From the IMG/VR virus record IMGVR_UViG_3300047382_000765, positions 1 through 22,864 of that record: DNA of 22,864 nt; one strand, given 5' to 3'. Positions 3,582 through 18,875 of the stretch are shown piece after piece; positions within the stretch are counted from its first letter, which is position 1, and each line of letters begins with the position of its first letter. Origin of the DNA: a virus. A program made the position numbers and the translations under genes. The notes below the pieces were generated by a model. It saw only the letters and a program-made list of their open reading frames with translations, had not been told where the DNA came from and did no database searches.

Positions 3582-4652
3582 ATGGAAACATCTACCGCGG
3601 AGGTTGAATCCCCGCAAACTACAGAGGAACAGTTCAGCATTGAGAACGCGTCAACTGACGATATTCGTAATGCATTAGGAGTAACGCCGGAGACTCACGA
3701 CCATCAGCCCGAGCCCGTAGCCGAGGAGCAAATCCCGGAGACTGAAGAGCCACAGGCCGAAAGCCTAGAGTCGCAATCCGAAGGTCAAGAGCCGGAGGCA
3801 GCAGCCCCCGAGACCGAGGAGGACGAGGAGAAGCTCGGTAAGAGAAGAATCCGTCCAAGAAACGAACTGGATCAGCAAGTCATCGATCTTTACAGATCTG
3901 AAGGATTTAGCGGATCATTCGCCGACGCATCCCGAATCATTTACGGACAAAGTGCAGAACCAGCCCCTCAATCTATTTCGCCCAATCAGGAGCAAGTCGA
4001 GGCGACCGAGCCCGACCCAATCAGTGGCATAGATAAAGAAGCTGACGACATTCGCGCATCCATTTTGGAGCTTGAAGGAAAAGTCGAGAAAGCAGCAGAA
4101 GACCTGGAGACCACAGAAGCCTTACGGCTTCAGCGTGAGATCATGAAGCAGGAACTTCAGTTGCAAAACTTGACTCTCCGTAAACAGCAAGTGGAGCAAG
4201 AAAGAGAGCAGCAAGTTTATCAATCCCATCGTAGTAAAGCGATGGAAAGCCGCGACCGAGTCTACGAAAGATTTCCTCAGCTGCAGGATAAGCAATCCGT
4301 TTATCGTAAGCAGTTTGATGATTTCGTATCGCAGGCTCAGTCCGACCCCGACTACGCCGCAGTCTTTGAATCACCACGATGGCCAGAACTCATAGCAAGC
4401 GAATTTGCTTCGATTAATCCGATGCAGCAGGCGCAACAAGCTCAGCCCGAGCCCGCTCCCGCTCCTCAGGTTCCTCAGCAAACCGCTCCGCAAATGGGTA
4501 CACAGGCCAAAGTATTGACGACTGGGACTACGGCACAACCTGTAAACACCCCCGCTACTCCCGAGGGCTTACTTCAACAGCTTCCCAATATGAATACTAA
4601 AGATATTTATTCACTCCTGGGATCTCCTGGTGGAGCACAGCCTTTAAGATAA
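3582..4652 (+). CDS. probable capsid scaffolding protein
   Basis: The 356-residue protein lies directly before the capsid gene, the usual place for a scaffold. Residues 1-90 are very acidic and rich in Glu, Pro and Gln. Residues 92-125 form a small ordered part (LDQQVIDLYRSEGFSGSF). Residues 155-225 are a charged heptad helix (DDIRASILELEGKVEKAAED and following), a probable coiled coil. A Gln/Pro/Ala-rich linker leads to a short C-terminal helix (NMNTKDIYSLLG) that could bind the capsid protein. No protease motif is visible, so a separate protease or none is implied. The function comes from composition and position rather than from sequence family. There is no clear Shine-Dalgarno sequence. 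Confidence 0.65.
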   Translation: METSTAEVESPQTTEEQFSIENASTDDIRNALGVTPETHDHQPEPVAEEQIPETEEPQAESLESQSEGQEPEAAAPETEEDEEKLGKRRIRPRNELDQQVIDLYRSEGFSGSFADASRIIYGQSAEPAPQSISPNQEQVEATEPDPISGIDKEADDIRASILELEGKVEKAAEDLETTEALRLQREIMKQELQLQNLTLRKQQVEQEREQQVYQSHRSKAMESRDRVYERFPQLQDKQSVYRKQFDDFVSQAQSDPDYAAVFESPRWPELIASEFASINPMQQAQQAQPEPAPAPQVPQQTAPQMGTQAKVLTTGTTAQPVNTPATPEGLLQQLPNMNTKDIYSLLGSPGGAQPLR

Positions 4653-4686
4653 GCGGGGCAATATAACCCTTAATTAACTTAATAAA

Positions 4687-6141
4687 ATGGCAGAAAAACA
4701 AATCCCAGCATCTCCAAACCCATTCAGCAGCCCAGCTGCTAATGTTGATTTGGTATCTAACACTACTTCCTATCAAGGACTTCTTGATGGCCCTAATTCC
4801 GACTTGCGTTCACGCCTCTGGTCCGAGCTTGTTTCTCGCGACGCTAGAGAGAAAAATGTATTCGCAAAATTCATCGGTGGCGAAGGAAGCGGAAAACCTA
4901 TTACTGAAAAACGCGACCTCTCCGCAGGCGGATCCGACAAGGTGACTTTCACCACTGTTGCTCCTATCCGTGGACAAGGTGTACGCGGTGAAGAAATCCT
5001 CAAGAACTCAACCGAGACTCTTGATTTCGGAACCTTCTCCGTTGAAATCGACCTCGTTCGTCACGCAGTTTCCTGGACTCAGGTTCTCAAGCTTATGAGA
5101 TTCACCGGCAAGACCATCGACCAGCTTTCAGCTGAAGTCATGTCCGAGTGGATGAGCCGCACCGAGCAAGACCAGATCCAATACGCATTGCGTCAGATCT
5201 GTTCCGCAAAGGCTACCTCCAATGTTATTTCCGCATACGGAACCGGCGCAAGCGGAGCTCTTAAATATGTTGACGGATTAAGCACCGACATCATCCAAGA
5301 AGCAAAGCAAGCACTTATCGCTAACGGCGCTGAGCCAATGAACACTGGTGGAGACGAAAACCAAGAAATTCCTGGTTACTTGTTCTTCGCACCAGACGCA
5401 TGCTTACGCCCTCTGCGTTCCGACCCTGACTACCTTGAGGCTATTACTCAAGCTGACAGCCGTGGCCCAGACAACAAATTGTTCTCCGGAAGCTATGCTA
5501 AATGGGACAACAACATCATCGCTAACCACAATGTTCTGATCGACACCGCTCGTGGACGCCAAGGTTCGCCATTACTTCCTACCTTCTACAACTTCGACGC
5601 TATCGTTGACGCGACTGCTGGAATTGGTGGAACCGGTCCTGAAGACTACATGGCTAACTTCCGTGGTGTATCGATCCGTATCCCTGGTGGCGGAGGAGAA
5701 ACCTTCGCAGCAGACAGCGGAACTTACCACATCCTCGGTATCGACGCAGCTACCGGCGAATACCGTTTGTACAGCTACGAAGCATCCGCAACTACTGTTA
5801 ACAGCACCGGCGCATTGACCGCTACTGGATTCGGAACTAAATCGGACGACGCGTTCTCCGCAGGATCCTTATTCGTACAAGCTAATGAAATCGGTACTCC
5901 TATCGGTTACGCATTGGCGATGGGTAAAGACGCTATGTACTTCGCTAAAGGTAAGATCTACGGTGAGCAAATCTTCCATTACGACGACTTCGCAAACAGC
6001 GGAAACGAGGCACACCTCTCCGCTGTTGGTGTTCAGTCCGTCTATGGTATGGCTGCTCGCAAGGACACTCGCGGTCGCGTTCCTGCGGTACAACTTATCG
6101 AAGTTGTTCGTCAGGTTCCTGGCTTGTCCCTCGCGCAATAG
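4687..6141 (+). CDS. major capsid protein, N4-gp56/DUF4043-like
   Basis: The 484-residue protein has the features of the N4-gp56 (DUF4043) capsid family: LRSRLWSELVSRDAREKNVFAKFIG near the N-terminus, then GGSDKVTFTTVAPIRGQGVRG, LDFGTFSVEIDLVRHAVSWTQ and a long helix MSEWMSRTEQDQIQYALRQI. These correspond to the N-arm, E-loop region and spine helix of an HK97-type fold (inference). The C-terminal third holds YALAMGKDAMYFAKGKIYGEQIFHYDD and ends near VQLIEVVRQVPGL. Codon use is strongly biased to GGT, CGT, AAC and TTC, as expected of a very abundant protein. It follows the scaffold-like gene and has its own terminator. No Shine-Dalgarno sequence precedes the ATG; the leader is AT-rich (TTAATTAACTTAATAAA). 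Confidence 0.85.
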   Translation: MAEKQIPASPNPFSSPAANVDLVSNTTSYQGLLDGPNSDLRSRLWSELVSRDAREKNVFAKFIGGEGSGKPITEKRDLSAGGSDKVTFTTVAPIRGQGVRGEEILKNSTETLDFGTFSVEIDLVRHAVSWTQVLKLMRFTGKTIDQLSAEVMSEWMSRTEQDQIQYALRQICSAKATSNVISAYGTGASGALKYVDGLSTDIIQEAKQALIANGAEPMNTGGDENQEIPGYLFFAPDACLRPLRSDPDYLEAITQADSRGPDNKLFSGSYAKWDNNIIANHNVLIDTARGRQGSPLLPTFYNFDAIVDATAGIGGTGPEDYMANFRGVSIRIPGGGGETFAADSGTYHILGIDAATGEYRLYSYEASATTVNSTGALTATGFGTKSDDAFSAGSLFVQANEIGTPIGYALAMGKDAMYFAKGKIYGEQIFHYDDFANSGNEAHLSAVGVQSVYGMAARKDTRGRVPAVQLIEVVRQVPGLSLAQ

Positions 6142-6191
6142 TCAGATCTATGCCGGCTAGGATTTCCCTACAAATCCAACCCTAAAACTTG

Positions 6192-6225
6192 GCCTCTCCT
6201 CTGCGTAGCGGGGGAGAGGCTTTTT
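6192..6225 (+). terminator. rho-independent terminator after the capsid gene
   Basis: GCCTCTCC at 6192-6199 pairs with GGAGAGGC at 6213-6220, followed by TTTTT. It lies 50 bases after the capsid stop and would separate strong capsid expression from the downstream tail genes. Confidence 0.9.
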
Positions 6226-6247
6226 ATATAAAAATAAACCTAATGTC

Positions 6248-6592
6248 ATGAAAATTATAATTATTGGTAAGAGAGATCAGATGGGTACAACACCCGCAAT
6301 CCGTGTAAAAGGAATGAGCCAAGTCCGGTACAATTTCATATGGGACAAGGAAATTAGACACTATGCCTATGAGCCAAAGAATCAGAAAGAGGTAGATGAT
6401 ATCTTTAGGACTCAGGGAAAACTTTATAAAACTATGTTCTTCTCCGTCTGGCTGGAGCCGGAAATTCCGGAATCTAGGCTCGTAAAAGAAGGAATGATTA
6501 AGCAATCCACGGACGAGGCAGAGGCCAAAACTAAAAAGCCAAAGGCCAAAGGCCGAAAGCAACCGGTAGAGAAAGAAATACAGCCTGCGTAA
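6248..6592 (+). CDS. hypothetical head-region protein (114 aa)
   Basis: The protein starts MKIIIIGKRDQMGTTPAIRVKG, with a beta-rich first part and WFFS/VWLEPEIPE-like aromatic segments (FFSVWLEPEIPESRLVKEG) in the middle. The last 30 residues are Lys-rich and low-complexity (KTKKPKAKGRKQPVEKE). I do not recognise the family. Between the capsid and adaptor genes, phages often encode small head-completion or decoration proteins, so that kind of role is possible. There is no Shine-Dalgarno sequence. It lies just after the terminator and stops 9 bases before the next gene. Confidence 0.6.
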   Translation: MKIIIIGKRDQMGTTPAIRVKGMSQVRYNFIWDKEIRHYAYEPKNQKEVDDIFRTQGKLYKTMFFSVWLEPEIPESRLVKEGMIKQSTDEAEAKTKKPKAKGRKQPVEKEIQPA

Positions 6593-6601
6593 TATGTTAC
6601 A

Positions 6602-7354
6602 ATGGCCGCCATTACATATTTAGATCTCAAAGATCAGCTTGCGTCCATGCTGGGTGCGAGCGAAGTTGCTGATCTCCCACCTATTGATCAGAAGCGTATC
6701 GGTATGTGCATCAATCAAGCATATCGGGAATGCTATCTTCCAATCGATGGGAAGCGTCCAATGTGGGCGCAAAAACGGTTCGAAGTATCGTTCGCAGCTG
6801 AAACTCCTGGTGTAGAACTATCATCGGAAATCGTTTCGGTTGATAAGATTCCAGAGCTCTTAGGCGAGGGCCCGCTTTCTCCAATGAAAGGACCGGAGGA
6901 TGAGATTCGTGCGCGTGCTATATTTAGCTGGGACTTTAAAGCACCTAGTGGAAGAGGCTTAAACTTTCCGCATTTCAAGGACAACGAGCCAGAAGTTGGT
7001 CGCCCGATCTGGTACTATTTAGATAGCCGAAATCAGGGTGAGGATGGAAAAGTAGTCCCTCGATTATTTCTCTATCCGATCCCTGACAAGGCTTATGAGG
7101 TTGAATTCTTCGCTAATGTTCTACCTGCAGACCTTGAGCTTGATACCGATGAACCCAGGATGCCGTCTGATACCGTGTGGGATATATTATTTCCTATCGC
7201 CCAGGGCAAGATGCTTGCAGATCCTCGGTACAACGGTGACAACCGTGAAATTCTTATGCGCATTGCTGAGGAAGCGAGAAAAAGACTTAGGACTCTGGTC
7301 TCACCTCAAAAGCACAAAGGGTCTCTCCGTTTAACCAAGCGCCCAGGCTGGTAA
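6602..7354 (+). CDS. probable head-tail adaptor protein
   Basis: The 250-residue protein begins ITYLDLKDQLASMLG and continues DQKRIGMCINQAYRECYLPI, a helical start like that of adaptor (tail tubular A-like) proteins, which pack helices under the portal. The middle is beta-rich and includes RLFLYPIPDKAYEVEFFAN, and the end returns to helix: VWDILFPIAQGKMLADPRYNGDN and AEEARKRLRTL. This order, helix bundle then beta region with a 'P.P...Y.VE' strand then C-terminal helix, is typical of podovirus adaptors, and position after the capsid gene supports it. The call rests on pattern and position only. It precedes the giant repeat protein by 4 bases. Confidence 0.6.
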   Translation: MAAITYLDLKDQLASMLGASEVADLPPIDQKRIGMCINQAYRECYLPIDGKRPMWAQKRFEVSFAAETPGVELSSEIVSVDKIPELLGEGPLSPMKGPEDEIRARAIFSWDFKAPSGRGLNFPHFKDNEPEVGRPIWYYLDSRNQGEDGKVVPRLFLYPIPDKAYEVEFFANVLPADLELDTDEPRMPSDTVWDILFPIAQGKMLADPRYNGDNREILMRIAEEARKRLRTLVSPQKHKGSLRLTKRPGW

Positions 7355-7358
7355 TTAT

Positions 7359-10300
7359 ATGAGCAGAGACCTGACAATCAGGCTGCTCGGCCGCCCGCAG
7401 GTATTATCTGACGGGAGTACGGGCTTTAGAAAAATGTCACGGAAGTATGTTGTGCAAGGTCCGCGCGCCACGCTTTCGGGAATTTTAGATAGCAGCAACC
7501 CGCTTTTTTTGGATGTCGGAACTCCTGATGAGGAGTTCACTGAATACTATTTAATTGATCAGAAGTTAAGCCCGGCTAGTGACACATTAGATAAGGCCTA
7601 TCTTGTTCGCGAATATATAGAGGCAACTAGAATCCCCGTTACTGAAAGTTTTTCTCAAGCCGACGGGACAATTAGTATTCGTAAAAAGTTTACTGTTTTA
7701 AGAACTGCTGACAACACACTTGGTTATGGGTCTAGATGGGGTAAACACCCAAGCCAAAAAACTAACCCTAATACTGATGCGTGGCAGTACATTCCTGAAT
7801 GGGTTGAATCTGAAATACCTGAGACTTATACGGTTTCTGGTACTGAATCGACAGGTTCTTGGAGGAAGGGATCCGTTAGTGTCAATCAGGTAGGCGAGGG
7901 CTTAGATGTTTGGAGTGTAGAATACATAAACATTAAGCTTTTAGGTAGGCCAGAAGTTACGACAGATAAGCAAACAGGATTTCGTAAAATAGTTAGAAAG
8001 TATGTTGTTGAAGGCCCTCAAACAACTTACAGCAGTGTTTTAGATAGCAGTAACCCTCTATTCTTACCTGTCGGAACTGCAGACTCGGATTTTTCAGGCT
8101 TCTATCTAGTTGACCAGAAGCTATCTAAGTCTGATGAAAAACTGGATAAAGCGTATCTAGTTCAGGAGTATTTAGAGGTTACAAACATACCTACTACAGA
8201 AAACTTTTCTCAGTCTGACGGGACTATCAGTATCCGTAAAAAGTTTACAGTTTTAAGGACTAATGATGCTGCCTTAGGTTATGGATCTAGATGGAATAAG
8301 CATCCAAGCCAAAAAACTACTGCTAATACAGATTCTTGGGAGTATATACCATCTTGGGTTGAATCTGAAATACCTGAGACTTATACGGTTTCTGGTACTG
8401 AATCTACAGGAAGTTGGAAGGAGGGTTCTGTTAGCGTAACTCAGCTAGGAGAGGGCCTAGATGTTTGGAGTGTAGAATTCATAAACATAAAGCTTTTAGG
8501 CCGCCCTGAGGTTACGACAGATAAGCAAACAGGATTTCGTAAAATAGCGCGAAAGTATGTTGTTGAAGGTTCCAACGCTACATTTAACGGGGTCTTAAAC
8601 TCTGCTAGTCCTTTATTCCTACCTGTCGGAACTGCTGACTCAGATTTCACTACTTTTTACTTAGTCGAACAAAAACTTACTAAGCCTGACGAAAAGCTGG
8701 ATAAAGCCTATTTGATTCGAGAATATTTAGAGGTTACAAATATACCTACCACAGAAAACTTTTCTCAATCCAACGGAACTGTTAGTATCCGTAAAAAGTT
8801 TACAGTTTTAAGAACTAATGATGCTGCCTTAGGTTATGGGTCTAGATGGAGTAAGCACCCAAGTCAAAAAACTAGCGCTAATACAGATTCTTGGGAGTAT
8901 ATACCTTCATGGGTTGAATCTGAAATACCTGAAGTTTACACGGTTTCTGGTACTGAATCTACAGGAAGCTGGAAGGAAGGCTCTGTTAGCGTAACCCAGC
9001 TAGGTGAAGGTTTAGATGTTTGGAGCGTAGAACATATAAACATAAAGCTTTTAGGACGAGCGGAGGTTACAACTGACAAGAGAACAGGCTTTAATAAGAT
9101 ATCAAGGCGGTATGTCGTTGAAGGCCCCAGGGCTACATTTGATGGTGTATTTGGTGCTACGAACCCTTTGTTTTTACCTGTAGGTACTAGTGACTCAGAT
9201 TTTACAACCTACCGACTAACAGATCAAAAACTCTCTAGGTCTGATGAAAAGCTGGATAAAGCATATCTTGTTCGCGAGTATTTAGAGATCAGTGCAAGAG
9301 CGATTCAGGAAGCATATACACAGACCAATGATTTGATTCGTGTACGCAAACGGTTCGCTGTTCTTCGCAATGATGATGCGACCATAGGATATGGAACCTT
9401 GTGGGCTAATCATCCTAGCCAAGCTACTACCTATGCGGAAGATCCATGGGAATATGCACCTGCATGGATTAAATCGGCTACGCCAGGATCCAAGAATTAT
9501 ACTGTCGATAATGCGGACGATGGCACACAGCATGGTTTTGCAGATACGCCTCAGGTCGGATCGGATAGCCTTGGAACATTTGCCGCGACCCATGCAAGCT
9601 CTGGAGATTGGATGGAGGGATATTCTGTAATGACCCAGGCAGGTTCCGGTCTGGATGTATGGACAGTTGAATGGGTTACCCATGCCGCACCATACTGGGT
9701 GCTCGGAACGGGCAGGGGTGGTCGGAGTAGAACTTCTTCTGTTAATGTAGTTTCTTTTGACAACACCGGGTTGTTTACTACTGAGTCAATAGCATCTTCT
9801 GGAAGTGTTTCTTACACAACTCGGTCGATGACTTATAACTTTTTTGTGCGGGCTAGTTCGATTCCTTCGCAACTTGCTCAAATAGGTGGTGGGTCTGCAT
9901 CTGTATCTTTTAGCCCAACCGTCAGTGTGGATTATTCGGTTACTGATTCTGAGGGTAGAACTCGCCACGAGCGTAGTTTGATTAAAAATGCTGTGTGGGA
10001 CGGGTCAAATGATTTCGAACTAACTGATCAAGGTGGTACTTCACGAACTTTGGGTACCATATCCGGGAATAAGATGACATTTGATTGGGCGACAGAAAAA
10101 GAACCTATACCAGACAGCGTTGGTAATGAGCAAAAAGACAGTGAAGGTAACACGATTATAGACTGGGTGCCTTCAAAATTAATAGATTTCAGGGGAGCCT
10201 TAATAACCGCCATAAAAGGTAACATTTCCTGGACCATGACCAAAACCAGTTATAGCTGGTCCTCCAGCTCAGGTACTTTCGGCCAAACAAAAACAGCAAT

Positions 10301-10367
10301 CGCTCCAATATTTTCAAAAGGGTCTGAGAAGATCTGGAAAGTAGCTATTACCTATGTTGGAGGATGA
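7359..10367 (+). CDS. large virion protein with four ~185-residue tandem domains
   Basis: The 1002-residue protein is mostly one domain repeated four times: residues 9-193, 194-378, 379-563 and 564-776, the last with about 28 extra residues. Each begins LLGRPEVTTDKQTGF-like, then RKYVVEG, NPLFLPVGT, DKAYLVREYLE, IRKKFTVLR, GYGSRW, HPSQKT and ends EGLDVWSVE. Residues 777-1002 are a different domain, rich in Ser, Thr and aromatics (for example SWTMTKTSYSWSSSSG). I do not recognise the repeat; it appears beta-rich. The gene sits among tail genes and overlaps the next gene by 14 bases, so a tail or spike component is likely. Length and repetition suggest an extended structure. There is no Shine-Dalgarno sequence before the ATG. 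Confidence 0.75.
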   Translation: MSRDLTIRLLGRPQVLSDGSTGFRKMSRKYVVQGPRATLSGILDSSNPLFLDVGTPDEEFTEYYLIDQKLSPASDTLDKAYLVREYIEATRIPVTESFSQADGTISIRKKFTVLRTADNTLGYGSRWGKHPSQKTNPNTDAWQYIPEWVESEIPETYTVSGTESTGSWRKGSVSVNQVGEGLDVWSVEYINIKLLGRPEVTTDKQTGFRKIVRKYVVEGPQTTYSSVLDSSNPLFLPVGTADSDFSGFYLVDQKLSKSDEKLDKAYLVQEYLEVTNIPTTENFSQSDGTISIRKKFTVLRTNDAALGYGSRWNKHPSQKTTANTDSWEYIPSWVESEIPETYTVSGTESTGSWKEGSVSVTQLGEGLDVWSVEFINIKLLGRPEVTTDKQTGFRKIARKYVVEGSNATFNGVLNSASPLFLPVGTADSDFTTFYLVEQKLTKPDEKLDKAYLIREYLEVTNIPTTENFSQSNGTVSIRKKFTVLRTNDAALGYGSRWSKHPSQKTSANTDSWEYIPSWVESEIPEVYTVSGTESTGSWKEGSVSVTQLGEGLDVWSVEHINIKLLGRAEVTTDKRTGFNKISRRYVVEGPRATFDGVFGATNPLFLPVGTSDSDFTTYRLTDQKLSRSDEKLDKAYLVREYLEISARAIQEAYTQTNDLIRVRKRFAVLRNDDATIGYGTLWANHPSQATTYAEDPWEYAPAWIKSATPGSKNYTVDNADDGTQHGFADTPQVGSDSLGTFAATHASSGDWMEGYSVMTQAGSGLDVWTVEWVTHAAPYWVLGTGRGGRSRTSSVNVVSFDNTGLFTTESIASSGSVSYTTRSMTYNFFVRASSIPSQLAQIGGGSASVSFSPTVSVDYSVTDSEGRTRHERSLIKNAVWDGSNDFELTDQGGTSRTLGTISGNKMTFDWATEKEPIPDSVGNEQKDSEGNTIIDWVPSKLIDFRGALITAIKGNISWTMTKTSYSWSSSSGTFGQTKTAIAPIFSKGSEKIWKVAITYVGG
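7383..9686 (+). repeat. four tandem coding repeats, period 555 bp (last 639 bp)
   Basis: Units start at 7383, 7938, 8493 and 9048. The first three are exactly 555 bp. Units 2 and 3 share long identical DNA tracts, for example around 7960-7990 and 8515-8545, showing recent duplication or gene conversion. Unit 4 is the most diverged and carries an 84-bp insertion. Confidence 0.9.
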
Positions 10368-12222
10368 TCAAAGGTTTGAAGAGCTAGAGTCAAAGCTCGC
10401 AGCCTTAAGCTCGCAGGTTGAGAGCCTGGAGCTAGATACCGAAGTAGATCCGTTCTTTGAAGACGATGTGCGCAGGGTCATAGACGATTTTAAAAGTCGT
10501 GAGCTCGCAGGTCTTGAGTCGGAGGATTTTGATGGTGACGATGATGATTCGTCCAGCTCGGATGATTTTATATCTGTTCAAACAACTGGCGGTCCAAGCT
10601 TTAAGACGCACTGGATATCTCCAGCATCCTGCGATAATATGACCCGCGACCTTGCGCGTGATGCCTTTGTCCAAGGAGCAGCGGATAGGTATGGTACCAG
10701 TCGGCAAGTAAACAACGGAGATGTTCTTATTTTATTGTGCCGGGAACCTGTAGCGGAGGGCAGCGAGCCAGCGGAGCCTCAGGCTCCCAGAGAAATATGC
10801 AGGTATATTGGGTTGGCGTATAATACGCTCGTTCATCCAGCCTCTGCCGAGCCTACTAATTCATCAGAAGAAAGTATTTCAGCACCCGTTGGAAACTATG
10901 AAATATTTGTATGGAGCTCTTGTGAATGTACCAGTGAAAGCCCTAAAACGGTTACTCTCCCTTCAGTATTCAAAGAAAATAAAAGTGCCTCAGTCACCCA
11001 CGGCTCTTACAGTAGTATTGGAGATGACATATCACCTGATACTTCAACAGCTTCAAGTCTACTTACCAGTGCGTCCTTAAGAAAAGACAGCGCCACTGGA
11101 AAAGTAGATGTAGCTAAGGGACTGAGCGACACAGTCACAATTACAAGCAATAAGTCTGGCTACAAAACAGATTTAGTTACCTTATCCAAAGATTTAGTGG
11201 AGTTCTATTTAGATACAGAGGCTCAAGATCTTACATTTAAGGGTGCAAAGAAAAATTTAAACGCTCACTTATTTTCCTCAGATAACTATGTATCTAAGGA
11301 CCTAACACTGTCGAACGAAGAGTGTTTGAACTTATATACAGTAAGTATGGGCAGTGTGTTCGACTTAAGCTTGCTTAGAGAAGGTGCTGGATCTTTTGGC
11401 AGCACTTTTTTAACAGACGCATCGGTAAGTTTAGGGGTCGTTACTGAGTTGGAGAGCGCATTGGCAATTGAAACTTATGATTTTAATTCCGACGCTGTTA
11501 CAACTACACCTGTAGGTGATCAGGTATTTCTACCTGTTATATCAAACGAAAAAGCAGATTTAATATCTAAAACAATATCGGATTTTCTACCGCTTACGGA
11601 GTTTGATGTGACGATAGAAGCTTCGTATAATGTTGTCTACGAAGATGAGTCTAAAGGCGACGCAGAGTACAGATTCTATAAACAAAAAAAGGTGCTTACT
11701 AAATTAGAATGGGCCTCCGGTCTTTTAGTAGATTATGAAGAAGGTGAGCTTAGCGAAAAAGAACTTATTGGAGTAATAAGAGTAAGTAAAATTCCTATAA
11801 CTTACTCCTGCGATCCTGTATACGGCTGCATGCCAGACCCTGCTGGTCATTACCGGAACGAGAACTGTGATAATTTATGTACTTATGGTACTTATCTTTT
11901 TCCAGTACCCTCAGAGGCCAGAACTGTTTATTTATACTTAGGAAGTTACCAGGAAACAGGAGTTCAGGATAATATAGATTTAACTGCGGGCGGAGTGGGA
12001 TATAAATTTGTAAGCGGTGGCGTAGAAGAGTTTACACTAGAACCTGACGGTGTTTTATACGGAAGCGTAACTGTGCCGAATGGCGCCTCCTTACCATACT
12101 TTGATAATGGAAATTATGTTTCCCATTCAAATTTGCCTGGATGGGTCAGCGATTATAATGGAAACGCAGATATTAATACAGGGGAGCTTATATCCCCTGA
12201 AGACATAATAGTTTTTAATTAA
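10354..12222 (+). CDS. virion protein with coiled-coil N-terminus and acidic linker (622 aa)
   Basis: The start overlaps the previous gene by 14 bases. Residues 1-30 form a coiled coil (FEELESKLAALSSQVESLEL), a likely trimer or partner contact. Residues 40-75 are an acidic, Ser-rich linker (DFDGDDDDSSSSDDF). The large remainder looks beta-rich, with no domain I recognise. Two Cys clusters stand out: WSSCEC near residue 192, and CDPVYGCMPDPAGHYRNENC followed by DNLC near 488-511, resembling the Cys-rich tail protein further along. Position between the 185-residue repeat protein and the Ig-like protein suggests a tail or baseplate component. Function unknown. Confidence 0.65.
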   Translation: MLEDDQRFEELESKLAALSSQVESLELDTEVDPFFEDDVRRVIDDFKSRELAGLESEDFDGDDDDSSSSDDFISVQTTGGPSFKTHWISPASCDNMTRDLARDAFVQGAADRYGTSRQVNNGDVLILLCREPVAEGSEPAEPQAPREICRYIGLAYNTLVHPASAEPTNSSEESISAPVGNYEIFVWSSCECTSESPKTVTLPSVFKENKSASVTHGSYSSIGDDISPDTSTASSLLTSASLRKDSATGKVDVAKGLSDTVTITSNKSGYKTDLVTLSKDLVEFYLDTEAQDLTFKGAKKNLNAHLFSSDNYVSKDLTLSNEECLNLYTVSMGSVFDLSLLREGAGSFGSTFLTDASVSLGVVTELESALAIETYDFNSDAVTTTPVGDQVFLPVISNEKADLISKTISDFLPLTEFDVTIEASYNVVYEDESKGDAEYRFYKQKKVLTKLEWASGLLVDYEEGELSEKELIGVIRVSKIPITYSCDPVYGCMPDPAGHYRNENCDNLCTYGTYLFPVPSEARTVYLYLGSYQETGVQDNIDLTAGGVGYKFVSGGVEEFTLEPDGVLYGSVTVPNGASLPYFDNGNYVSHSNLPGWVSDYNGNADINTGELISPEDIIVFN

Positions 12223-12223
12223 A

Positions 12224-12967
12224 ATGAACGAAACTATATATGTTGGTGATACCTACGAGGAAAAGGGGGCCACAGTCCCTGAAGGTTACACTTTATACAT
12301 ATCGGGGAGCGTAGATACTAGCACTCCTGGCGATTACACAATAACTTACAGAGCTGTAGAAATCGAAACAGGGCAGAATGTAACACGCACGAAAAAAATC
12401 ACCGTATTAGAGGTGCCACAGTCTACACCCAATATAACCTTAGTTGGTGAATCTGTGGTTACTGTAGATCTTGCGGATGCTCTTTCTTATGTAGATTCAG
12501 GTGCTACCTCTACCGCGGAAACCGTTTACGCTACCGGGCCGAGCGGAACACAAGATATCACATCTGGAAGTTTCACAGGCGTTCCTCAAACACTTGGCAG
12601 CTATACTATCATATACCACACAAAAACCGGAGGTGCTTACGCGACAAGAACAATCCATGTAATAGACCCCGATTCAGGAACGGGCGGGACAGGCGGAACC
12701 GGCGGAACCGGCGGGACGGATACAAAACCTTCAGTCGGGTATCCGGTTGTAAGCATAAGCACGAGCGCAGGAACCGGAGGGACGGATACAAAACCTTCAG
12801 TCGGGTATCCGGTTGTAAGTATAAGCACGAGCACAGGAACCGGAGGGACAGACACAAAACCTTCAGTCGGGTATCCGGTTGTAAGCATAAGCACGAGCGC
12901 AGGAACCGGCGGGACTGACACAAAACCTTCAGTCGGGTATCCGGTTGTAAGCATGTCGTCTACTTAG
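12224..12967 (+). CDS. Ig-like virion protein with C-terminal 22-residue repeats
   Basis: The 247-residue protein begins with two bacterial Ig-like domains. The first (residues 1-65) has GDTYEEKGATVPEGYTLYIS, then STPGDYTITYRA and TRTKKITV, the DUF5011 pattern of surface and phage proteins. The second (about 68-147) repeats the plan, with LGSYTIIYHTKTGG. A Gly-Thr linker (SGTGGTGGTGGTGGT) leads to four 22-residue repeats (TDTKPSVGYPVVSISTS) that run to the stop. Ig-like domains on virions usually give weak binding to cell-surface sugars. The gene starts 2 bases after the previous stop. The domain type is well supported, the ligand is unknown. Confidence 0.75.
   Translation: MNETIYVGDTYEEKGATVPEGYTLYISGSVDTSTPGDYTITYRAVEIETGQNVTRTKKITVLEVPQSTPNITLVGESVVTVDLADALSYVDSGATSTAETVYATGPSGTQDITSGSFTGVPQTLGSYTIIYHTKTGGAYATRTIHVIDPDSGTGGTGGTGGTGGTDTKPSVGYPVVSISTSAGTGGTDTKPSVGYPVVSISTSTGTGGTDTKPSVGYPVVSISTSAGTGGTDTKPSVGYPVVSMSST
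12704..12967 (+). repeat. four tandem 66-bp coding repeats
   Basis: Units of exactly 66 bp start at 12704, 12770, 12836 and 12902. Differences between them are few and mostly silent (GAT/GAC, GGC/GGA). The last unit diverges in its final codons and contains the stop. Because 66 is a multiple of three, other frames also stay open here. Confidence 0.92.
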
Positions 12968-13010: not shown

Positions 13011-15719
13011 GTGAGGTTTTTCCGGATACCATCCTTCACCGGGATCGAGGCGCATCGCGATGACGCCGATCGCGGCTCCCTTCGTATGGTCGAAGGCTGC
13101 TTACCGCACGGGCCGGGCGGTTTGCGCAGCGGTCCTGTGTGGGAAAAAATTGGTGAGGTTTCTAAATACTCAACAACTGAAACTAACCATGTAACCGCAG
13201 CAGACGATGGGCAGGGTAACTCCCTACTATTCGTTTCCAGGAACTGTAAAATTCATGACCTTGCGGTAATCTCAGAAGAAAATACTCAGCTTAAACAGTT
13301 CGGGGATTCTTATGATGTAGCAATCCCGGAATCGTCTCTCTATAACGATGGTCTGGCCAATCTCACACCCATTGGAAACCGCATATATGCGGTCGGAGAT
13401 GGAAGCTCCGAAGCTATGTTTGTAGGGAAAGGACCTGATGATACTTTCGAGGTGTTCCCAGATGAAGACTTGTACAGTCAAGAGTGGTCAAGATTTCCTA
13501 AATGCCAGTATTTTGTTCAAGGACCTAAGAAAACAATTTTTGCGGCAGGGAACCCCGCCAAACCGCTTACGGTCTACATCTCGGAGCCCGCAGGCCTTAC
13601 TTCTCCTTATAGGGACACTCCTTACAGTACAGAGGATACAACATATAACCAAGGCGTGCTATCAACAGTAGATATTTTAGGGTCCAACGCATCTAAGATA
13701 ACTGCGCTTTCTACCAGAGGAGATCAGGTAGTAGTGCATACCGACAAAGGCTGCCACCTTCTATACGCTCCCTCTCCAGATCAAGCGAGTACCGGGTATC
13801 GTGTAGAACAAGCACCTGCTACCAACTTTTCTGCTGCGGTAAACTCAAAGGTCGTTTCCCGTGCGTCCGGAGCTTTGACCTATTGGGTAGGGCATGATGG
13901 GCAAGTATACAAGGATGAGGCCGCAAGCCGTGGGTCGGAGGACTTAAGAAGCCGGGCGGACGAGGATCAGGCGAATTGGAAAAGTAAAGGTGTGTGGGAG
14001 CATGAACACCCCACCGACTTATCCCAATCTTTTGCTGTATACTCCCCGCAATCTGGTGACTATATATTTTTTATTGAAACGGAAGAGTACGAAAGTTTTG
14101 AAGTGCCTGAGCCCCCAACAAACTTGCGGGTCGTTGAACCGTTCGGGCCTAATCAAGTGTACTGGCGTAAGAATACCTATACACCCTGTGAAGATGCGGA
14201 TCCAGATATTAATTATTATTGCTGCGATCCGACATTCACTCAGACCGATTTTACCTACACATCGTTTAAAGAGTGTTCAACCTCTGCCGATAGTTACGAA
14301 ATCGCGTTGTGTAACGATATAACACCCGACGGTTGCCGGCAGTGTGCAGCTGGTGAATATCACATATCTGATGATTGTACATGCTACAGGCATAATCAAG
14401 AGGGGTGCGTTCCCGGGTTTTTCACCCTGGAGTCGTGTGAAGCCTTCCTAGAGATTCAAGCGGGCGGCGAACCTGGTGATCGTTGCACTCGTTGGGCAAA
14501 AGAAGGCTGTCAATGTGTTCGAGGCAGCTCTGGCCCGTTTACAAGTTCTGAATCTTGCCAAGCAGCAATTGATGCGGACGAGAATTGTGTTTCTCGATAC
14601 GATATAAGCTCTAACAACCTTTGCGAATGCGTACTTTCGACTTACGGTACTTACGAAAACAAGGAATCGTGCGAAACTGCTCTTCCAGAAGAGTGCAAAT
14701 CTAAATACCGTCTAGAGAATGGTTGCAACTGTGTGCCCGACTCTGAGGGAGAGTACGAAAACAGATATCTGTGTGAAGAAAATATTGTAGCTGGTTGCGG
14801 TGAAAACTATCTCTATGAACTTGTAGATTGCGACTGTGTTAAGACTGAAACAGGTACGCTATCTGAAAGTCAGTGCTTAGCTAGAAAAACCGTAAGCCCT
14901 TTATGTTTTACAGGTGCGGGAACCTGTTGTGATGACTGGGAAGCTCTAGGTTTTAACTCAGTTGAGGAGTGTAAAGGCAGCTCGTTTTATTATAGTGAAA
15001 CTCATTCTTACTGCAGCACTAATGGAGGTTATGATACTTACAGCGACTGCGACGAAGATGGTATTCCCTCAGATTATCGATATGACTGCAATTCCGAGGA
15101 CGGTAGTTGCTCAGAGTGCCCCGAACTTGTTTGGGAGATATCTAATTGCTCCTGTACCACCGTTCTTAGCGACGAAGCGGTAGGCACTACATATGAAACT
15201 GAGTCTGATTGCCAACAAGCACTAACTAGCGAACCGGGTTGCACTTTATATCTGCTAGATACCAGCACCTGTTCATGCAGCTCGATTGTGTCTTCAGCGG
15301 ATCCAGATAATGTCACAACTTTTGCAAATTTAAGTTCTTGCGAAGCAGCTATGGATCTAGGCACGCAGTGCCAAAAGTACGCCATACAAGATTGCCAATG
15401 CGTAGAAGATCCCCTTGGGGCTTACCGAGGAATCACTAATTGTGCAATGGCACTATCTACAAATCCGGACTGCTCACCGCACTGGTTAGTAAACTGCAAC
15501 TGTACGGCGACCGATCCGGCAGACGGTACACCATCTTTCCCTGATTTGACCGCATGCATCGAAGCATTAACCGTATCTGTCGAGTGTAACTGCGATAGTT
15601 CGGATCGAAGGTATGAGCTTTTAGTAGATACCGGAGACTCGTTTTGTTTAGACCAGGGAAGCGGTTCAGGAACTTTTACAGAATGCGAATGTATAGAACT
15701 AGGCTACACAATAACATAA
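13011..15719 (+). CDS. tail protein: propeller-like N-terminus fused to a Cys-rich repeat region
   Basis: The 902-residue protein starts at a GTG; an in-frame stop 18 bases upstream leaves no other start before Met26. Residues 1-365 resemble the beta-propeller of podovirus tail stabilisation proteins: an RFFRIPSFTGIEAHRDDADRG start, then LPHGPGGLRSGP, ITALSTRGDQVVVHTDKGCH and ALTYWVGHDGQVYKDE. At about 368 a fibronectin-like strand begins (PTNLRVVEPFGPNQVYW). From about 385 to the end the protein has over 50 cysteines in a loose 36-40-residue repeat: C-x(7-10)-C-x(8-11)-CxC-x(8-20)-C, with aromatic and Gly positions between. I know no phage family with this. The rest of the propeller protein may be encoded at 16245. 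No Shine-Dalgarno sequence is visible. Confidence 0.65.
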   Translation: MRFFRIPSFTGIEAHRDDADRGSLRMVEGCLPHGPGGLRSGPVWEKIGEVSKYSTTETNHVTAADDGQGNSLLFVSRNCKIHDLAVISEENTQLKQFGDSYDVAIPESSLYNDGLANLTPIGNRIYAVGDGSSEAMFVGKGPDDTFEVFPDEDLYSQEWSRFPKCQYFVQGPKKTIFAAGNPAKPLTVYISEPAGLTSPYRDTPYSTEDTTYNQGVLSTVDILGSNASKITALSTRGDQVVVHTDKGCHLLYAPSPDQASTGYRVEQAPATNFSAAVNSKVVSRASGALTYWVGHDGQVYKDEAASRGSEDLRSRADEDQANWKSKGVWEHEHPTDLSQSFAVYSPQSGDYIFFIETEEYESFEVPEPPTNLRVVEPFGPNQVYWRKNTYTPCEDADPDINYYCCDPTFTQTDFTYTSFKECSTSADSYEIALCNDITPDGCRQCAAGEYHISDDCTCYRHNQEGCVPGFFTLESCEAFLEIQAGGEPGDRCTRWAKEGCQCVRGSSGPFTSSESCQAAIDADENCVSRYDISSNNLCECVLSTYGTYENKESCETALPEECKSKYRLENGCNCVPDSEGEYENRYLCEENIVAGCGENYLYELVDCDCVKTETGTLSESQCLARKTVSPLCFTGAGTCCDDWEALGFNSVEECKGSSFYYSETHSYCSTNGGYDTYSDCDEDGIPSDYRYDCNSEDGSCSECPELVWEISNCSCTTVLSDEAVGTTYETESDCQQALTSEPGCTLYLLDTSTCSCSSIVSSADPDNVTTFANLSSCEAAMDLGTQCQKYAIQDCQCVEDPLGAYRGITNCAMALSTNPDCSPHWLVNCNCTATDPADGTPSFPDLTACIEALTVSVECNCDSSDRRYELLVDTGDSFCLDQGSGSGTFTECECIELGYTIT

Positions 15720-16248: not shown

Positions 16249-16907
16249 AAAGTAAAGCTGGAGTATCTAAAAAGTATGTTTTTAATGAAAGATCCAATTC
16301 TTTGGCCGGACCTTTTGACTCAGACATAACAGCAATAGCACTAAGAGAAAATTCTTCAGAAATTTTAGCTGTTAATAAAGAGTGTGAAATTTTAAAGACC
16401 GATTTACTTGACCTTAACAACCCGTCGTTTTCGAAAGTAAGCCCCTTTCCAATTGATGTTACTCAAACCTTTAGCGGTAACGAAAACGGTATTGTTGGTT
16501 CAAAAGATGGGGAGTTTTTATACCGACTCAAGCACTTAAAATCGCCCTTTGATAAGCCTGTGCTCGGTTCAGGCGATATTTCTGATCCTTTATATTTTAA
16601 AGACTGCTACCTATCGATCGCAGAAACAAACTGGATGCATTTCGGATCAGAAGCTGCGGAGAAGGAAGTATACCGAATCGATCTATCCTTTCATACAAAC
16701 TCAATCGGTCATCTCTGGCTATATATTCAAAACGACACAGGCAAAGTATCCGGGCAGTACAAAGGAGCGATCAAAGAAACGGTGAAAGTATTCACCAATC
16801 TCAGAGGCCGCAGATTTAAAATAAAGATGTTTGTCGCCACCCATGAAGATTACCCATGGGCAATGCGCGAAATGGCTGTCGGATATAATATCGGAAAATC
16901 GTTCTAA
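16245..16907 (+). CDS. C-terminal part of a tail stabilisation-like protein (220 aa)
   Basis: The ATG at 16245 (ATGA overlap) is preferred over a GTG at 16221 inside the preceding gene. Residues 25-135 contain propeller-like strands (ITAIALRENSSEILAVNKEC and GIVGSKDGEFLYRL). Residues 135-220 hold IDLSFHTNSIGHLWLYIQND, then GRRFKIKMFVATHEDYPWAM followed by REMAVGYNIGKSF, which resembles the C-terminal domain of podovirus tail stabilisation proteins as I recall them. Together with the 13011 product it would complete such a protein. The gene ends one base from the stop of the convergent integrase. I am fairly sure it is a tail protein; the exact family needs a profile search. Confidence 0.65.
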   Translation: MKSKAGVSKKYVFNERSNSLAGPFDSDITAIALRENSSEILAVNKECEILKTDLLDLNNPSFSKVSPFPIDVTQTFSGNENGIVGSKDGEFLYRLKHLKSPFDKPVLGSGDISDPLYFKDCYLSIAETNWMHFGSEAAEKEVYRIDLSFHTNSIGHLWLYIQNDTGKVSGQYKGAIKETVKVFTNLRGRRFKIKMFVATHEDYPWAMREMAVGYNIGKSF

Positions 16908-16908
16908 T

Positions 16909-18099
16909 CTAAGCCGCCCATAGCTTCTTAATCTTATCGTTTGCCATAATGTCGGCATAGCTATCGTTGGTTGTGCTCGCATCGGCATGCCGCAAGAATT
17001 TTTGGGACATGTAAATCCCTTCGGTTGTAGCAACATAGGATCCGAACAGCTTCCGCAGCTCATGCAATGGATTTGGTCTGTCCCATCCGATCGAGCGGAG
17101 CTGCTTGATCAAACCGTCAAACAGTACGCGTCCATAATCCGCACGGGTTGTAATTAATAAATCATCGCCCGACGCTTTATTAAGAATAGATTTAGCGATG
17201 ACCTTGCTCCCAAGAGTAAACCCTTCATGACCACCCTTCGGCCTGAAACCTCCGTCCGCAGCAATATTGATTCTGGCTCGCTCCTCGCAAAGATCGAACC
17301 AATCCCTTCGGCAATGAAATGCTTCACTTCTGCGCAATCCAAAGTGCAGGCTTAGCCCGAGCATGGTATATAGATCACCTTCCGACTCTGCGAATAGATC
17401 AAATGTTTTCTTGATCAAATCTTCAGCGGGTAGTCTGTACTGTTTCTTTAACTTTTTATAGAACTCTTCCGCTCGTATGATCTCGGCAAAGTCCATATCA
17501 TAGTCCTTAAATATTTTCGGCCTTGAGAATATCGCTTTTACCTGACGCATACGACTATTGATCGAACGCTTACGACTCGCGATCTTTGCCTCATCGCTCA
17601 AGCCTGTAAGCTCTTGGTTTTTATATTTTCTTAAAAACTCTTCGTTTATCAGCGATAGATCAAAGCTATCGTCCGGAGTCTTACCTATTACTTTCTTAAT
17701 CAATCCGGTAATCGATTGCTTATATCCGCGCAAGGTTGTGTCCGTAATCCCTGCAGATATTTGATTCTGCTCTAAGGCCTCAAGACATTGGCCTAAGGTC
17801 GGAGGTTTTGGCTTATCTAATGCGAATGCTTTTTTATTAAACATCTCTTGAACTTCCCGAAATGGATGAAGGACTAGATGAGCTCGTATTTGATCTGCCA
17901 GATCGAGCGCTTTTGATTTATCAAACCCGAGAGGGAAATATCTAGATTTCCCAGCTACCTGGGCCTTATAATTCCAACCTCCGTTTTGGCTGCGTTTATA
18001 GATTCGAGTGCCTGTTTTAGATTTGGCTCTCAGAGATGTACCTGATTTGTACCTGCGTGGTGTGTGATTCATATCACTACATTTTGTGTCTTTATGCAT
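16909..18099 (-). CDS. int: tyrosine-type site-specific integrase
   Basis: The 396-residue protein has the full phage-integrase plan: an N-terminal arm-binding region (residues about 15-80, YKSGTSLRAKSKTGTRIYKR and WNYKAQVAGKSRYFPLG), a core-binding helical domain (about 100-200), and a catalytic domain with Arg256 (GLRRSEA), a likely Lys288, His346-x-x-Arg349 (LHELRK), His371 (LRHADAS) and the nucleophile Tyr381 (NDSYAD). All key residues are present, so it should be active in phage integration and excision. It reads leftward beside the putative attP. The ATG at 18099 lies in an inverted repeat; another Met at 18072 is possible. No Shine-Dalgarno sequence is visible. It is convergent with the tail gene at its left. 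Confidence 0.93.
   Translation of the reverse strand: MHKDTKCSDMNHTPRRYKSGTSLRAKSKTGTRIYKRSQNGGWNYKAQVAGKSRYFPLGFDKSKALDLADQIRAHLVLHPFREVQEMFNKKAFALDKPKPPTLGQCLEALEQNQISAGITDTTLRGYKQSITGLIKKVIGKTPDDSFDLSLINEEFLRKYKNQELTGLSDEAKIASRKRSINSRMRQVKAIFSRPKIFKDYDMDFAEIIRAEEFYKKLKKQYRLPAEDLIKKTFDLFAESEGDLYTMLGLSLHFGLRRSEAFHCRRDWFDLCEERARINIAADGGFRPKGGHEGFTLGSKVIAKSILNKASGDDLLITTRADYGRVLFDGLIKQLRSIGWDRPNPLHELRKLFGSYVATTEGIYMSQKFLRHADASTTNDSYADIMANDKIKKLWAA
18035..18054 (+). repeat. 20-bp direct repeat copy 1, probable integrase arm site
   Basis: GATGTACCTGATTTGTACCT here is identical to 18255-18274. Each copy holds two TGTACCT boxes 11 bp apart (18037 and 18048). This copy lies inside the 5' end of the integrase coding sequence. 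The pair flanks the tRNA half at equal distances, as expected of arm-type binding sites. Confidence 0.6.
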
Positions 18100-18122
18100 T
18101 TTGTCTAGGAGTTTTGCATAAA
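18091..18122. repeat. inverted repeat at the integrase start codon
   Basis: TTTATGCA at 18091-18098 and TGCATAAA at 18115-18122 form an 8-bp inverted repeat with a 16-base spacer. The left arm covers the integrase start codon (complement of 18097-18099). It could be an operator or a site for a recombination factor. Confidence 0.45.
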
Positions 18123-18145
18123 CACCCTACAACTAGTGCCTTACA

Positions 18146-18157
18146 TCAAAATTTTGA
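18146..18157. other. 12-bp palindrome, probable attP core centre
   Basis: TCAAAATTTTGA is a perfect palindrome that spans the point where identity to tRNA-Leu stops. Half of it is the tRNA anticodon loop. Tyrosine recombinases bind inverted core sites around a short crossover region, so this is the best candidate for the strand-exchange site. Confidence 0.55.
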
Positions 18158-18190
18158 ATCCAGCGCGTCTACCAATTCCGCCATCCGGGC
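18151..18190 (-). other. 5' half of tRNA-Leu (anticodon CAA), putative attP identity block
   Basis: Read on the minus strand, this 40-base segment begins GCCCGGATGGCGGAATTGGT and continues through a complete D-arm, the 5' anticodon stem (CTGGA) and the loop TTCAAAA, with anticodon CAA at 18156-18154. It then stops matching: the 3' anticodon stem, variable arm, T-arm and acceptor 3' strand are all absent. It is thus not a working tRNA but a fragment such as phages carry as the part of attP identical to the host attB. It lies next to the integrase gene and between two identical arm-like repeats. Confidence 0.8.
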
Positions 18191-18199
18191 AAGTTGTTG

Positions 18200-18227
18200 A
18201 TTATCAGCAAGTTGACATGCGTGTCAT
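18200..18227 (-). promoter_or_regulatory. leftward promoter toward the tRNA half and integrase
   Basis: On the minus strand, ATGACA (-35, 18227-18222) is followed after 16 bases by GATAAT (-10, 18205-18200). Each matches the sigma-70 consensus at five of six places. The start of transcription would be at about 18193, three or so bases before the tRNA 5' end at 18190. It would drive the integrase through a leader of about 95 bases and, after integration, the rebuilt host tRNA. Confidence 0.55.
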
Positions 18228-18240
18228 GCGTTGTTATACT
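18212..18240 (+). promoter_or_regulatory. rightward sigma-70 promoter with consensus boxes
   Basis: TTGACA at 18212-18217 and TATACT at 18235-18240 with a 17-base spacer is close to a perfect sigma-70 promoter. Transcription would begin near 18247 and read the two small genes at 18299 and 18558. Confidence 0.75.
18213..18226. promoter_or_regulatory. palindromic operator containing both -35 boxes
   Basis: TGACA-TGCG-TGTCA is a perfect inverted repeat. Its left arm is part of the rightward -35 box and its right arm is part of the leftward -35 box. One repressor dimer here would block both promoters, and polymerase at one promoter would exclude the other. Confidence 0.6.
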
Positions 18241-18254
18241 GTTAAAAATCGCAT

Positions 18255-18274
18255 GATGTACCTGATTTGTACCT
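18255..18274 (+). repeat. 20-bp direct repeat copy 2, probable integrase arm site
   Basis: Identical to 18035-18054, shifted by 220 bp, again with two TGTACCT boxes (18257 and 18268). It lies in the leader of the rightward transcript, just after the predicted start, so a bound protein could also affect that promoter. Confidence 0.6.
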
Positions 18275-18298: not shown

Positions 18299-18565
18299 AT
18301 GAAAGAGTGGTTGGAGGCCCAAAAGGCTAGTGAAAGTGACATGTTAAACGCTGTATCTGTGCAGGCAAAAGACATTGCGGAGGAGCTTATTCCGCAGGTT
18401 AGATTGTGTGCCCTGGAGAATGAAATGAGTGCGACTATTTCGTTCCGTGTACATTTCGAGTTTGATGAAAAAAATACTGATATCTGGTCAGAGGGAATCG
18501 TAGAATTTCCTCCGAAGCAATCTGTATCTCAATGCTTTCGTATAGAGCCTAAGAAAAGTGACTAG
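18299..18565 (+). CDS. small acidic hypothetical protein (88 aa), first gene of rightward control unit
   Basis: The ATG at 18299 follows a strong Shine-Dalgarno sequence (GGAGGG, 18289-18294); an in-frame ATG at 18287 lies before that site and is less likely. The protein starts MKEWLEAQKASESDMLNAVS, a helix, and later has strand-like sequence (SATISFRVHFEFDEKN and GIVEFPP). I do not recognise a family. It is the first gene behind the consensus rightward promoter, coupled by an 8-base overlap to a helix-turn-helix gene. In temperate phages this place often holds lysogeny or early regulatory genes, so a regulatory or anti-repressor-like role is possible. Confidence 0.65.
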   Translation: MKEWLEAQKASESDMLNAVSVQAKDIAEELIPQVRLCALENEMSATISFRVHFEFDEKNTDIWSEGIVEFPPKQSVSQCFRIEPKKSD

Positions 18566-18875
18566 GCCAAAGAAGAAAAAAGCTCCTCAGCCACATAGCA
18601 AAGTACTAGACAGTCTCGGGCTTACCCGAGAAGAAGTGCGTGCGGCGTTTAGTATACCAACGCCAGAAGCCGAGAAGCCTACTTCAAAAGGTTATCTCTT
18701 CCTGCATGAGCAAAGGAAGATGAAAAAGCGAATGAAGCTTTACTCAAATATGATCTTCGCAAGATTCGAGGCCGGTATCAGTCCAACTATCATAGCTGGC
18801 GTGCTCGGAGTCTCCGAAGAGACCGTGCGAGTCCGTTTGCGTCGTGACGGTTACTTCGGTGAAACCAGTAAGTAA
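18558..18875 (+). CDS. helix-turn-helix protein (105 aa), probable regulator
   Basis: It starts at GTG 18558, overlapping the previous stop. The first 20 residues are basic (TRPKKKKAPQPHSK), residues 20-50 contain LGLTREEVRAAF, and the C-terminal part has a clear helix-turn-helix: GISPTIIAGVLGVSEETVRV followed by RLRRDGYFG. This resembles helix-turn-helix segments of sigma-region-4 or resolvase type. A role as repressor or activator acting on the nearby operator at 18213-18226 is attractive but unproven. Its last 132 bases overlap the 3' end of the leftward nuclease gene on the other strand, and they encode most of the DNA-binding motif. Confidence 0.7.
   Translation: MTRPKKKKAPQPHSKVLDSLGLTREEVRAAFSIPTPEAEKPTSKGYLFLHEQRKMKKRMKLYSNMIFARFEAGISPTIIAGVLGVSEETVRVRLRRDGYFGETSK

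Follow-up and report, generated by a model that had tools for sequence, protein, structure and literature searches.

The viral DNA stretch analysed here (22,864 nucleotides; referred to as the window) contains a tyrosine integrase gene (positions 16909–18099, minus strand) that may start at either of two ATG codons, 18072 (MNHTP) or 18099 (MHKDT). The gene is complete, as the preliminary description of the sequence had stated, and its product (P0001) exhibits the R..HELR..H..Y signature, with the catalytic residues R246/R247, HELR 336–339, H361 and Y371 being invariant in its nine closest homologues. Comparison with PHROGs matched the protein to phrog_1 (integrase; E 1.7e-19), and a sequence search of the PDB with the integrase profile gave no match at E 0.01. 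In the AlphaFold model (mean pLDDT 75.9, with the last 43 residues poorly modelled), the N-terminus consists of strands 22–25, 32–38 and 41–48 followed by helix 51–67, i.e. a β-β-β-α arrangement spanning residues 22–67, and the top Foldseek match of the model was the full-length lambda Int bound to core DNA (1z1b, E 7e-7). The Pfam family of the lambda arm-binding domain (PF09003) was weakly matched in three of 20 integrase members. The protein is predicted to be a lambda-type (bivalent) integrase that carries both the catalytic tetrad and an N-terminal arm-binding domain (residues ~13–57), the latter followed by the core-binding and catalytic domains.

Divergent from the integrase gene lies a small conserved ORF (18299–18565, plus strand; 88 aa from ATG 18299 or 92 aa from ATG 18287), which has no family match and is located beside attP in relatives as well. 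A 105-aa ORF (18558–18875, plus strand) contains a helix-turn-helix-like segment with weak matches to Sigma70_r4 and HTH_23, and represents a candidate regulator. Elsewhere in the window, positions 12224–12967 and 7359–10367 encode predicted proteins whose sequences are strongly repetitive internally (units TDTKPSVGYPVVSISTS; LGRPEVTTDKQTGFRKI), and a 902-aa cysteine-rich repetitive protein with no PHROG match is encoded at 13011–15719, beside the small genes preceding int.

The preliminary description had recognized an attP-like layout next to the integrase gene, and its main elements were recovered exactly. Two 100% identical 20-bp repeats (GATGTACCTGATTTGTACCT), at 18035–18054 and 18255–18274, are spaced by 220 bp, and the chance expectation for such a pair was 0.00, even allowing three mismatches. 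Each repeat contains two TGTACCT boxes 11 bp apart, four in total at attP, and a single further copy of this box occurs in the window, at 601. At the putative P-side arm site (18255–18274, plus strand), whose position is kept in relatives, boxes 18257–18263 and 18268–18274 read AGGTACA-AATC-AGGTACA on the minus strand. The putative P′-side (int-side) arm site (18035–18054, plus strand; boxes 18037–18043 and 18048–18054) is located at the 5′ end of the integrase frame, within the first codons of the ORF (RRYKSGTS), a point absent from the earlier description. The midpoint of the box pairs, 18155.5 (18037 plus 18274, halved), had been correctly placed on the CAA anticodon (18154–18156) of a 40-nt tRNA-Leu 5′ half that runs from 18190 to 18151 on the minus strand. 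ARAGORN found no complete tRNA in the whole window.

The proposed attP core (18151–18192, minus strand) is a 42-bp block that reads TTGCCCGGATGGCGGAATTGGTAGACGCGCTGGATTCAAAAT from 18192 to 18151 and matches the start of the host tRNA-Leu(CAA) gene exactly, with the leader TT included. An IHF-consensus-like site (AATCAACAACTTG; 18190–18202, minus strand) abuts the core (WATCAANNNNTTR), and the DNA may be bent there; at least eight of its nine specified bases are found in 20 of 24 distinct attP sites, the motif partly overlapping the constrained tRNA leader. Between the core and the P arm, a σ70-like promoter, TTGACA-17-TATACT (18212–18240, plus strand), is predicted to drive the divergent small-ORF operon, and its TGTCAA...GTATAA elements are recognizable in most relatives. 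Between the core and the P′ arm, an imperfect inverted repeat (18075–18138) with 24-bp arms at 18075–18098 and 18115–18138 (CACTACATTTTGTGTC.. / ..GTGTTTATGC) is partly conserved across the attP relatives and constitutes a candidate Xis site or operator region. The 12-bp palindrome TCAAAATTTTGA (18146–18157), which had been counted as part of the layout, is present, but it is kept only in the window and in one relative (L003) and broken in the others; it is therefore regarded as incidental and was rejected as a functional element. The region is very probably a complete lambda-type attP of ~240 bp, served by a bivalent integrase and incorporating a tRNA-Leu 5′ half.

The attP family and the proposed position of strand exchange

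Relatives were gathered through integrase matches in viral contigs, and many further ones through the tRNA stretch and its stem variant. The same attP layout was found in at least 37 distinct contigs (those counted being the window, L002–L008, L010–L014, L018, L023, L028, L030–L033, L039, L041–L045, L047 and L079–L088). The integrase relatives in viral contigs are 80–94% identical, and a tblastn search of the integrase against GenBank phages gave no match. Across the family, the arm repeats are always separated by 219–222 bp with the anticodon at their midpoint, the first integrase codons contain the int-side arm, and the integrase begins directly past the core in every contig covering that part. 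The tRNA block is invariant in all attP relatives except for one anticodon-stem base, T or C (GCGCTGG or GCGCCGG), and the GCGCCGG variant is shared by the hosts L060 and L065 and 11 attP contigs, where it lies in the core.

Strand exchange had been proposed to occur in the anticodon loop. Both junctions of an integrated relative (see below) fall within the 42-bp block, which bounds strand exchange, and homology there stops one base beyond the anticodon loop. Strand exchange would take place in or beside the loop, with TTCAAAA (18152–18158, minus strand) as the putative 7-bp overlap, because in all attP phages the invariant block stops one base beyond the loop, because the 5′ stem base of the phages tracks the host tRNA variants (L060, L065), and because the stem-loop of the anticodon is what is classically described as the anticodon subsite (PMC4383910). 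A crossover elsewhere in the tRNA block, in the D arm or the anticodon stem, would fit the fact that the 42-bp identical block is common to both junctions, which makes the exact point unreadable from sequence, and the lack of conservation to the right of the loop, where the core half-site (after AAAAT) varies between phages and a classical C′ site is not visible. We nevertheless consider such a position unlikely: no tRNA resemblance is required of the DNA to the right of the crossover, and the block stops just past the loop everywhere; the tracking of host variants implies that the 5′ strand of the stem enters the restored tRNA; at the end of the block, only the anticodon stem-loop is an inverted repeat with a centre of 7 bp; and anticodon-centred attachment is a common class (PMC4383910).

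Arm sequences and the integrase N-terminus

The arm sequence is hypervariable between phages and mostly matched within each phage. Arm types include AGGTACAAATCAGGTACA, GTCACAAAGTCGCTACA and CCCGTCACAAATCCGTGAC, as well as TATGCGTCAATTAGGCG, AGGTGCCAATTAGGTGC and GATACACATTCGCCACA, and most of them consist of two half-boxes ~11 bp apart. The P and P′ arms of the same phage matched at 15.7 of 18 positions, versus 11.9 when the pairing was exchanged across phages (0 of 20,000 permutations), and when only eight mutually dissimilar representatives were used the values were 16.4 and 12.0 (1 of 50,000 permutations). Moreover, the distance between non-coding P arms correlated with that between arm-binding domains (r 0.75), also when the remainder of Int was corrected for (partial r 0.58; 0 of 5000 label permutations); shared ancestry is not fully removed from these arm-match and distance tests, and two close pairs of phages are independent of it.

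In the first of these pairs, L004 and L006, the neighbouring ORF region is 99% identical, the core-binding/catalytic part 96% and the core 100%, whereas identity falls to 65% in the P arm, 68% in the P′ arm and 71% in the arm-binding domain. In the second, the window and L003, the corresponding values are 85%, 89% and 100% for the similar parts versus 64%, 68% and 75% for the switched ones. The converse was observed between the window and L004, which share 91–95% identity in the arms and the arm-binding domain versus 76% in the rest of Int. Since two independent close pairs have switched both arms together with the arm-binding domain, these comparisons provide strong evidence for arm sites, not operators. 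The concerted change of both repeats with this domain thus supports the original reading of the repeats, and Int would bind to the TGTACCT boxes. Statistically, the arms co-vary with the arm-binding domain as exchangeable specificity modules, with the spacing and the core fixed.

The location of the repeats could also be explained if they were operators for a phage repressor or another regulator, as the P repeat, just downstream of the conserved σ70-like promoter, overlaps the divergent operon's leader and the P′ repeat falls at the beginning of int, so that a bound protein could regulate both int and the operon. This explanation is very improbable, given that both repeats switch between L004 and L006 while the small-ORF region is nearly unchanged and only the Int arm-binding domain differs, that repeat distance correlates with this domain beyond the rest of Int, and that a constant 220-bp spacing with the anticodon at its centre agrees with an intasome. 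The near identity of that region across the arm switch likewise disfavours a role of the repeats as operators of the neighbouring small ORFs. A dual use of the arm sites, involving autoregulation by Int, is possible.

Poorly matched P and P′ arms (11–13 of 18) were observed in L011, L018 and L039, in which the int-side arm is identical to the L003 type; these may represent recent one-sided arm switches.

A tentative and rather doubtful interpretation of the arm variability is that the arms and the arm-binding domain form a module under diversifying selection, in which phages competing for one tRNA-Leu attB keep switching arm type so that the integrase of a relative cannot excise or hijack the prophage. 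If this were true, the data would yield a readable protein–DNA code for arm recognition.

An integrated relative and the empty site in Opitutales

A genome-wide scan revealed an integrase relative in the single-cell genome AH-709-J17 of Opitutales (Verrucomicrobiota), on contig C27 of G001 (L046). The integrated element is 14.3 kb long and its int is ~50% identical to that of the window; the element is not the window phage itself. At one end, a half tRNA-Leu (2261–2300, within the 42-bp block 2259–2300) is located directly before int and, at the other end, a complete tRNA-Leu(CAA) was detected on the same strand (16526–16612, ARAGORN). The sequence upstream of the left half resembles the host tRNA promoter of sister genomes (TTGCCA/TTGCAA element), and the complete tRNA is preceded by the phage P side, with a homologue of the small ORF and the phage leader TCAACACTTTGCCC.

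In the sister genomes the tRNA-Leu is uninterrupted and has the same right neighbour gene as in G001. The left flank of G001 aligned as DNA with nothing in the sister genomes, and a translated search showed that L062 shares the left neighbour gene of G001. Of 373 genomes from the Opitutales order, G001 alone has the half tRNA, and it alone has a complete tRNA preceded directly by the phage leader; a search of these genomes by integrase and junction patterns found no further integrated copies. Junctions elsewhere in integrated relatives would have contradicted the preliminary description, and in G001 both lie exactly in the tRNA-Leu block. With a complete tRNA at one end, a displaced fragment at the other and an empty site in relatives, the G001 element has the features of a tRNA-targeted integrating element (tDNA island).

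The element contains few phage-like genes, and codon 4 of its small-ORF homologue is a stop, which indicates a decayed prophage or island. Its arms are poorly matched (13/18). The genes at 3681–11747 of the same contig, among them one for a 931-aa Kelch-like surface protein and others for proteins with repeated YENGQK-type motifs, are unlike those of the window phage and may represent cargo or accretion.

The view that the tRNA half is a roleless fragment, either tRNA-derived debris or a defence decoy, and that integration uses another site draws on other marine phages (L015 and similar) that carry similar tRNA-Leu 5′ stretches with no detectable relative integrase, but it is hardly tenable in the face of an element with both junctions in the block beside a related int and an empty site in sister genomes.

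In L015, which belongs to a different phage group, the tRNA-Leu stretch occurs twice (47–77 and 1139–1169), 1092 bp apart (upstream GCGGGTGT). The copies enclose an ORF with a methyltransferase-like TSPPY motif and are followed by one that resembles a phage RNA polymerase. The stretch is also present in L022, L024, L026, L029, L034, L035 and L037, and the same two-copy spacing was observed in G269:C88. No relative of the window integrase was found at the L015-group loci, where the tRNA half may possibly have a second attachment or a regulatory use.

Proposed mechanism and comparison with known systems

According to the model that we propose, the N-terminal arm-binding domain of the integrase would hold the paired 11-bp-spaced boxes on each side, and the core-binding and catalytic domains would act on a core in which the phage carries a 5′ half of tRNA-Leu(CAA), a gene of the host. 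Recombination at the anticodon loop, or just beside it, would join the phage 5′ half to the host 3′ half. This would restore a complete tRNA-Leu at the P end and leave the resident 5′ half, with its promoter, beside int at the opposite end; both outcomes are seen in one integrated relative, G001. Since the phage supplies the tRNA 5′ half, the restored tRNA stands behind phage DNA and not behind its native promoter. The window and L003 have a strong-looking phage promoter candidate (ATGACA-16-GATAAT) from which the restored tRNA could be transcribed, and its score of 9.48 is attained in only 1–2% of shuffles; a strong-looking candidate also occurs in L023; no such promoter conserved across the attP family was found.

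The lambda Int/attP system provides the model of a bivalent tyrosine integrase acting on an att site of 240 bp that contains IHF sites besides the arm-type and core-type ones (PMC4880445). The system described here resembles it in its predicted arm-binding, core-binding and catalytic domains, the paired arm sites flanking the core, a candidate IHF site and a length of ~240 bp. In contrast to lambda, the core is a host tRNA 5′ half, there are only two arm pairs, symmetric about the proposed crossover, one arm lies within the int reading frame, and the arm sequence varies widely among close relatives.

In the Cluster K mycobacteriophages CrimD, Anaya and Adephagia the arm consensus differs together with N-terminal substitutions, and Pixie and Tweety share a common attB and have different arm sequences (PMC3203893). 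Paired 11-bp arm sites around a tRNA/tmRNA core, with an arm consensus that differs jointly with the integrase N-terminus, are common to Cluster K and the present family. However, the K1 differences concern one or two positions, whereas here at least eight dissimilar arm types occur at a fixed spacing and both arms and the domain have undergone two near-clean switches.

Partial tRNA-Leu sequences serving as attP beside an integrase are also found in other marine phages. The T7-like cyanophages P-SSP7 and S-TIP37 have their attP in tRNA-Leu, and integration in cyanobacteria was shown by PCR (PMC8776855); the marine group G11 was linked to a Verrucomicrobia single-cell genome, as inferred by att identity (PMC3861242). 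Unlike in those cases, both integrated junctions and the empty site are available here, in Opitutales.

Islands with a displaced 5′ tRNA fragment form a minority class, 159 of 3919 in Islander (PMC4383910), and the archaeal pTN3-like integrases act at the 5′ half of tRNA genes (PMC8371274). As in those elements, the tRNA 5′ part is supplied by the element, the crossover would lie in the anticodon region and the tRNA is regenerated. Most integrants, as that account reports citing Williams 2002, keep the native tRNA promoter (PMC8371274); here it is displaced. In the tRNA-dependent lysogeny of mycobacteriophages, integration does not rebuild the tRNA, for which the phage encodes a complete replacement (PMC10865867). 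That system likewise has a tyrosine integrase target within a tRNA gene and a prophage that must keep tRNA function, but the phage family described here does not belong to it: a complete tRNA-Leu is rebuilt at the G001 junction and the window carries no tRNA.

As its individual features have precedents, the site is not a new kind of system. Its unusual part is the interchangeable module of arms and arm-binding domain, which is far more extensive than in Cluster K. The junction evidence fixes the host group (marine Opitutales) and the integration site of an uncultured phage family beyond sequence resemblance, and reveals a prophage whose insertion restores a host tRNA and parts it from the native promoter. 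Furthermore, the family offers a natural set of at least eight matched specificities of arm site and arm-binding domain, two near-isogenic switches among them, in which neither core nor spacing varies; such a set is what is needed to learn how lambda-type integrases choose their arm sites and why relatives diverge.
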